A DNA stretch of 64,000 nucleotides, taken from NCBI GenBank assembly GCA_007126575.1, contig SLBA01000013.1, positions 1-64,000 of the forward strand, written 5' to 3'. Under the pieces are notes generated by a model. That model searched no databases and was not told where the DNA came from. It worked only from the letters and a program-made list of their open reading frames with translations. This document shows, in pieces, positions 40,493 to 40,925 of this stretch (position 1 is the first letter of the stretch; every line of letters starts with the position of its first letter). This stretch comes from Gemmatimonadota bacterium (lineage in GTDB: Bacteria; Gemmatimonadota; Gemmatimonadetes; Longimicrobiales; Gaopeijiaceae). Made by a program: the position numbers and the translations under genes.

Positions 40493-40530
40493 AAAAAAAA
40501 GGCACGGCGACCCGATCGGGTCGCCGTGCC
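40493..40530 (-). terminator. Strong intrinsic terminator of rpsO
   Basis: A perfect 13-bp stem (40501-40513 with 40518-40530) with a GATC loop is followed on the minus strand by eight T (40493-40500). It begins nine bases past the rpsO stop, so pnp is largely transcribed separately. Confidence 0.92.
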
Positions 40531-40538
40531 GGCTGACG

Positions 40539-40808
40539 CTACTTCCGCAGCCCCAGGTCTTCGATCAGACTGCGATACTGATCCAGATCACTCCGTTTCA
40601 GGTATTCGAGCAGTCTGCGACGGCGACCGACCATCCGGAGAAGTCCTCGCCGGCTGTGGTGGTCACCCTTGTGATCCGAAAAATGGTCCCGAAGCTCGTT
40701 GATCCGCTGGGTAAGCAGAGCGATCTGAACCGCGGTGCTGCCCCTGTCCTTCTCGTGGAGCTGGTATTTTTCAACGATCGCGTTCTTTTCTTCCTTCGTC
40801 ATGGTCAT
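40539..40808 (-). CDS. rpsO: 30S ribosomal protein S15
   Basis: 89 residues from the ATG at 40808, or 87 from the ATG at 40802; the first gives the family's usual 88-89. It binds the 16S rRNA three-way junction early in 30S assembly. [33 protein letters not shown] and the [20 protein letters not shown] block are typical S15. It has its own promoter, a structured 80-base leader and a strong terminator. The GGAGG at 40822-40826 is unusually far (13 bases) from the first ATG. Confidence 0.97.
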
Positions 40809-40892
40809 GGCTTGACCGGTGCCTCCGCAAGAGTCTTCGCTGCAGGGGAAGCCAACCTCTGTCGGCGTCTTTTCCCTAAACGTGTTCAAGCC
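40809..40892 (-). promoter_or_regulatory. Structured rpsO leader, candidate S15 autoregulatory site
   Basis: The predicted transcript begins at about 40892 with GGCUUGA, which is complementary to UCAAGCC immediately before the ATG (40809-40815), closing a 7-bp helix. Inside it two hairpins fit: one with 40872-40876 paired to 40846-40850 and, above a five-base bulge, 40861-40866 paired to 40851-40856 (loop AGAG); another at 40827-40840. Together they form a three-way junction, and the upper stem contains a G-U next to a C-G pair as in known S15 sites. Base pairs were read by eye, not by a folding program. Confidence 0.5.
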
Positions 40893-40896
40893 TTGA

Positions 40897-40925
40897 AAAG
40901 TAAGCCCGAAAGCGCGGGCGGACAA
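40897..40925 (-). promoter_or_regulatory. rpsO promoter
   Basis: Minus-strand TTGTCC (40920-40925) and TACTTT (40897-40902) are 17 bases apart. The start site would fall at about 40890-40892, at the first base of the leader helix. The -35 overlaps the end of ribF. Confidence 0.6.

Follow-up and report, generated by a model that had tools for sequence, protein, structure and literature searches.

The rpsO leader of many Gemmatimonadota carries a conserved core of 32-34 nt just upstream of the start codon. From comparison of sequences, we consider it likely that this core makes the leader a compact, lineage-specific S15-responsive element, in which S15 binds the core, stabilises a helix (P1) and hides the Shine-Dalgarno (SD) sequence. 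The conserved element is probably a previously undescribed switch that limits S15's own production. S15 autoregulation is a textbook case of one protein that is served by several unrelated RNA operators. The features of S15 leaders found here are a 5' leader of rpsO with a predicted promoter, mimicry of the U-G/C-G motif and overlap with the SD.

The stretch of DNA analysed (the window) comprises 64,000 nucleotides of a Gemmatimonadota bacterium (positions 1 to 64,000 of contig SLBA01000013.1). The rpsO locus in the window has the following features.

40539-40808 (or from 40802), minus strand: coding sequence of rpsO (S15), flanked by ribF (end 40937) and pnp
40806-40808 and 40800-40802, minus strand: first ATG and second in-frame ATG of rpsO
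40920-40925, minus strand: -35 element TTGTCC of the rpsO promoter
40897-40902, minus strand: -10 element TACTTT of the rpsO promoter
40889-40892, minus strand: GGCU, the predicted mRNA 5' end, also the 5' strand of a helix proposed earlier
40501-40530, minus strand: strong terminator-like hairpin between rpsO and pnp, which is context and lies outside the operator

The two ATG codons at 40800-40808 (ATGACCATG) are spaced by six bases; the usual N-terminus of S15 matches the second, and the more usual SD spacing comes from the first. The hairpin downstream of rpsO, which can be likened to the E. coli rpsO-pnp terminator, has 13 GC-rich base pairs followed by eight T. Therefore, rpsO may be largely monocistronic. 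The promoter reads TTGTCC-N17-TACTTT-N4-GGCT, placing the 5' end at GGCU (40892). We collected 110 rpsO leaders from the window genome and its relatives, of which 82 had a scored promoter. This hexamer class and the 17-nt spacer are present in nearly all of these 82 leaders and N4-GGCT in most.

The conserved part of the leader has the consensus GCUUCC-CNNG-CAGC-N2-5-GACUCYUG-N-GGAGGC, with an apical loop whose length differs by single bases among cores. In the window it consists of the following elements.

40821-40852, minus strand: the whole core, GCUUCCCCUGCAGCGAAGACUCUUGCGGAGGC, defined by alignments and by pattern matches that precede rpsO in 73 of 73 cases
40847-40852, minus strand: 5' strand of P1, GCUUCC (anti-SD), in which C40851 and U40850 contribute the pyrimidines of the U-G/C-G motif
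40840-40841, minus strand: invariant AG (100/100)
40831-40835, minus strand: conserved GACUC (CU 100/100, final C 99/100, GA 94-95/100)
40821-40826, minus strand: 3' strand of P1, GGAGGC, which includes the SD, GGAGG

Among genomes in which rpsO was found, the core lies upstream of it in 56 of 67 from family f1, 12 of 12 from f2 and 17 of 18 from f3, three families of one order. Two more f1 genomes carry a degenerate core. A clear core was not found in eleven f1 genomes, notably of genus g25, and none of the 13 genomes examined at first from other families in the class has it. The rpsO leaders of three g25 genomes (G026, G053 and G066; leaders L105, L103 and L102) have neither the core nor a GGAGG near the start, and they carry a GGAACA- or GGAAACA-like sequence directly before the start codon; the element may have been lost or replaced in this genus. 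Separately, leaders of families f4 and f5 (L019, L021-L024, L064, L095) have AUCGAGGGAUAA-type repeats near the rpsO start codon; these may represent a leader element of another kind.

We scanned the GTDB genome collection (about 85,000 species) with the pattern GCTTCCCNNNNAGCN{2,6}ACTCYNGNGGAGGC. The scan returned 73 stretches, and the S15 gene directly follows every one of them. Almost all bear titles of Gemmatimonadetes/Gemmatimonadota, Gemmatimonadales, Longimicrobiales or BD2-11. A few are titled Gammaproteobacteria; these are probably mislabelled bins, because some carry the leaders of f1 genomes (G056, G063). A covariance model of the core, R1, gave one strong match, at rpsO, in each core-bearing genome, including the window genome. 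Weaker matches in other families had E values of 6e-5 or worse and far lower scores. They sit away from rpsO wherever its position is known and were treated as chance. The idea that such weak matches are rRNA, raised for those in family f7, in genus g25 and in a few others, was rejected, as those fetched were not rRNA.

P1 pairs GCUUCC with GGAGGC in six base pairs, and 97.9% of cells are paired over 95 distinct sequences. None of 500 shuffles paired as highly, and slid versions of the helix reached 46-79%. Conservation leaves little variation in which to test for covariation over most of the core. The only covarying pair of P1 is the basal one (4-39), which is G-C in 83 sequences and A-U in nine. 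The A-U cases are all in family f3, together with A.C and A.G intermediates; therefore, the independent covariation events at P1 are few. The compensatory change from G-C to A-U also bears on whether the block acts as RNA at all. A long, near-invariant block could instead be a DNA element, for example the binding site of a regulator, or a short stretch of coding sequence. We regard this as scarcely credible, since the block falls downstream of the predicted start site and upstream of the start codon, includes the SD and shows this compensation at the base of a helix. The coding reading is further disfavoured because the single-base variation in loop length breaks any frame.

The third pair of P1 (6-37) is U.G in 94 of the 95 distinct sequences and is never U-A or C-G. 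C would pair better with G, and the retention of U.G is therefore what recognition of the wobble would predict; its U, however, can also be accommodated in other pairings. S15 recognises a U-G/C-G signature in helix 22 of 16S rRNA. The U.G of P1 and the C-G pair preceding it form 5'-GG-3'/3'-UC-5', in the orientation of G666.U740 and G667-C739 of helix 22. The same run of G-C, C-G and U.G as in P1 is present in Gemmatimonadota 16S rRNA, as seen in one family member (L202), rRNA having not been found in most relatives. The preliminary description had noted a G-U next to a C-G and proposed an S15-type regulatory leader. Such a leader is very probable, but its conserved part is one irregular hairpin that includes the SD (40852-40821), not the three-way junction suggested there.

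In E. coli S15, His42, Asp49 and Ser52 are reported to read U-G/C-G (PMC8470358). These residues are invariant in all 79 alignable core-bearing genomes (13 of the 110 genomes could not be anchored in the alignment). They are also invariant in genomes that lack the core, and thus permit binding and do not indicate it. We weighed a function independent of S15, in which the core would be an element of translation or mRNA stability (an initiation enhancer, an RNase site or a site for another factor). The SD is part of the conserved block, and binding of S15 to the core is something that we infer, which leaves room for such a function. It nevertheless appears improbable, because the core is confined to rpsO and carries the pairs that S15 recognises, including an invariant wobble.

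Folding gave a graded picture. In isolated cores, the mean pair probability of P1 is 0.86, and P1 lies within 0.2 kcal/mol of the minimum free energy (MFE) in 88 of 95. In whole predicted leaders, P1 exceeds a probability of 0.5 in 31% only; in the window leader it costs 5.3 kcal/mol relative to the MFE. The core offers other pairings: the CU of GACUC with AG, and CUCY (40833-40830) with GGAG. The latter alternative SD hairpin is paired in 99.7% of cells and is the one chosen by RNAalifold. Since the SD strand is common to both helices, the core could be a switch of two competing hairpins or of a pseudoknot-like kind, CUCY/GGAG against GCUUCC/GGAGGC, with S15 choosing between the states. This is modelled on E. 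coli and mycobacteria, and the leaders of E. coli and M. smegmatis do adopt two conformations (PMC8470358). But no covariation supports CUCY/GGAG, and in isolated cores it is weaker than P1 by a mean of 4.5 kcal/mol. Its 5' partner hairpin, GCUUC/GCAGC, has a near-constant U.Y mismatch, and a non-exhaustive search saw no conserved third strand for a pseudoknot. We therefore think a two-state switch unlikely. GCUUC/GCAGC was also considered as the main fold and was rejected, with 71.6% of cells paired.

The preliminary description had placed a three-way junction in this leader, closed against the start codon by a 7-bp helix between GGCUUGA (40892-40886) and the following strand.

40809-40815, minus strand: UCAAGCC, 3' strand of the 7-bp helix, not conserved

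The two strands are indeed exactly complementary, and UCAAGCC abuts the ATG at 40808-40806. The predicted start falls exactly at GGCU and leaves the 5' strand in the transcript. The closing helix and two inner branches are present in the MFE structure of the window leader. This fold (40892-40790, 103 nt) has an MFE of -32.2 kcal/mol and a z of -1.34, and 17 of 200 shuffles are at least as stable; when a longer stretch is folded, the closing helix is lost and z is -0.10. The junction exists as a predicted fold of the window leader, but its stability stands out only weakly from chance and it is not conserved. Covariation of the closing helix over relatives, proposed as a check, fails: of the close genomes, only the window genome and one congener (G000 and G001) have an exact helix. 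In G002, also of this genus, the helix is broken, with GTCGGAT ahead of the ATG. Averaged over the 82 leaders, the longest run of complementarity between the initial 10 nt and the segment from SD to AUG is 3.45, which is at chance level (3.54 +/- 0.08 after permuting the segments). The 7-bp helix was therefore rejected as a conserved element. Moreover, the junction would pair the conserved core strands with other, non-conserved partners, and its GGCU strand is a generic promoter feature. In 12 genomes, GGCT downstream of TTG-N17-TAnnnT gave 84 matches, compared with 31 for the control tetramer GCGT. Judged from these genomes, GGCU at +1 is a general promoter or initiation feature of the lineage, and GGCU as an rpsO-specific RNA element was rejected on the same enrichment. 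Taken together, an S15 operator formed by a three-way junction at the start codon is very improbable. The long GGAGG-to-AUG spacing to which the same description pointed holds for the window, where it is 13 nt to the first ATG; among leaders with the core the mode is 10 nt (range 4-20). As an observation in its own right, TTG-N17-TAnnnT-N4-GGCT promoters are enriched across the genomes of the order, which suggests that GGCU is a preferred initial transcribed sequence.

The preferred reading, a single S15-responsive hairpin, can be put as follows. The transcript would start at GGCU (40892), and the core (40852-40821) would fold into one irregular hairpin in which P1 encloses the SD strand. The region from AG to GACUC would close or decorate the apex. 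When S15 is in excess over 16S rRNA, it would bind this hairpin by contacting the U-G/C-G motif and probably also the conserved apex. Bound S15 would stabilise P1, hide GGAGG and block initiation of its own gene; both repression and its direction are predictions of the model. A more ambitious form of this model is that a single hairpin of 32-34 nt reproduces both halves of the rRNA site of S15, which we consider possible but doubtful. In that form, the U-G/C-G pairs would form the base, and some ten layers above them an AG/GAC apex would resemble the h20-h21-h22 junction; this likeness of the apex to the junction is only suggestive. Recognition and the regulated site would then be the same base pairs, with the SD itself forming the base strand. 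If this is true, the element would be among the smallest known S15 operators, with neither pseudoknot nor three-way junction.

A further independent S15 operator would inform estimates of the frequency and simplicity with which such operators arise, and it would come from a phylum in which the control of translation has received little attention. An unusually compact element with the recognition pairs on the SD would allow a clean test of the sufficiency of U-G/C-G at the SD. The approximately 95 distinct aligned homologues are a ready record of the positions that tolerate change.

Known S15 leaders come from E. coli, Geobacillus, Thermus, Rhizobium, Actinobacteria and Chlamydia (PMC4684408, PMC4137082, PMC8470358), and further rpsO leaders from Flavobacteria and archaea (PMC7247131). 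Where S15 autoregulation has been characterised, it acts at the initiation of translation (PMC10931766). The preliminary description knew of none from this lineage, and this still holds: no S15 leader from Gemmatimonadota is reported in the open literature that we searched (subscription papers lay outside the search). In Rfam release 15, no S15-leader family matched the window stretch up to E = 5 and no family at all matched in 16 relatives up to E = 1. HOTTIP and other weak Rfam matches in the window scored far below the gathering scores and were dismissed.

The E. coli leader, in which S15 acts through a pseudoknot and ribosome entrapment, shares with the Gemmatimonadota leader the gene, the U-G/C-G motif and the overlap with the initiation region. 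It differs in its pseudoknot, for which a non-exhaustive search of the Gemmatimonadota core saw no third conserved strand, and in its loop-1 A, which is read by Arg58. Position 58 is mostly Lys in Gemmatimonadota (67 of 79, with Met in six and Arg in five), although the S15 of the window has Arg. The mycobacterial and actinobacterial leader shares U-G/C-G, an SD in or near the structure and regulation at the level of initiation, which is proposed for Gemmatimonadota. Hairpins exchange with a pseudoknot in both E. coli and mycobacteria, and the mycobacterial/actinobacterial leader needs a pseudoknot or kissing loops (PMC8470358), whereas the Gemmatimonadota core is one irregular hairpin. The Geobacillus and Thermus leaders show a similar partial mimicry of the rRNA site and a proposed block of ribosome binding, but they are three-way junctions; the Gemmatimonadota core has only 32-34 nt and no conserved junction. 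The leader of the alphaproteobacterium Rhizobium radiobacter likewise has a conserved GU/GC stem-loop and the SD in the 3' strand of a helix. By its description, it is set apart by separate stems H1 and H2 with a linker of up to 400 nt, whereas GU/GC and the SD lie in one helix in Gemmatimonadota. The candidates of Chlamydia, Flavobacteria and archaea (PMC4137082, PMC7247131) are likewise lineage-restricted upstream of rpsO, in other lineages. Because the Gemmatimonadota leader would work like an S15 leader, without a three-way-junction fold or the Arg58 feature that marks the E. coli type, we regard it as a variant within the S15 leaders.
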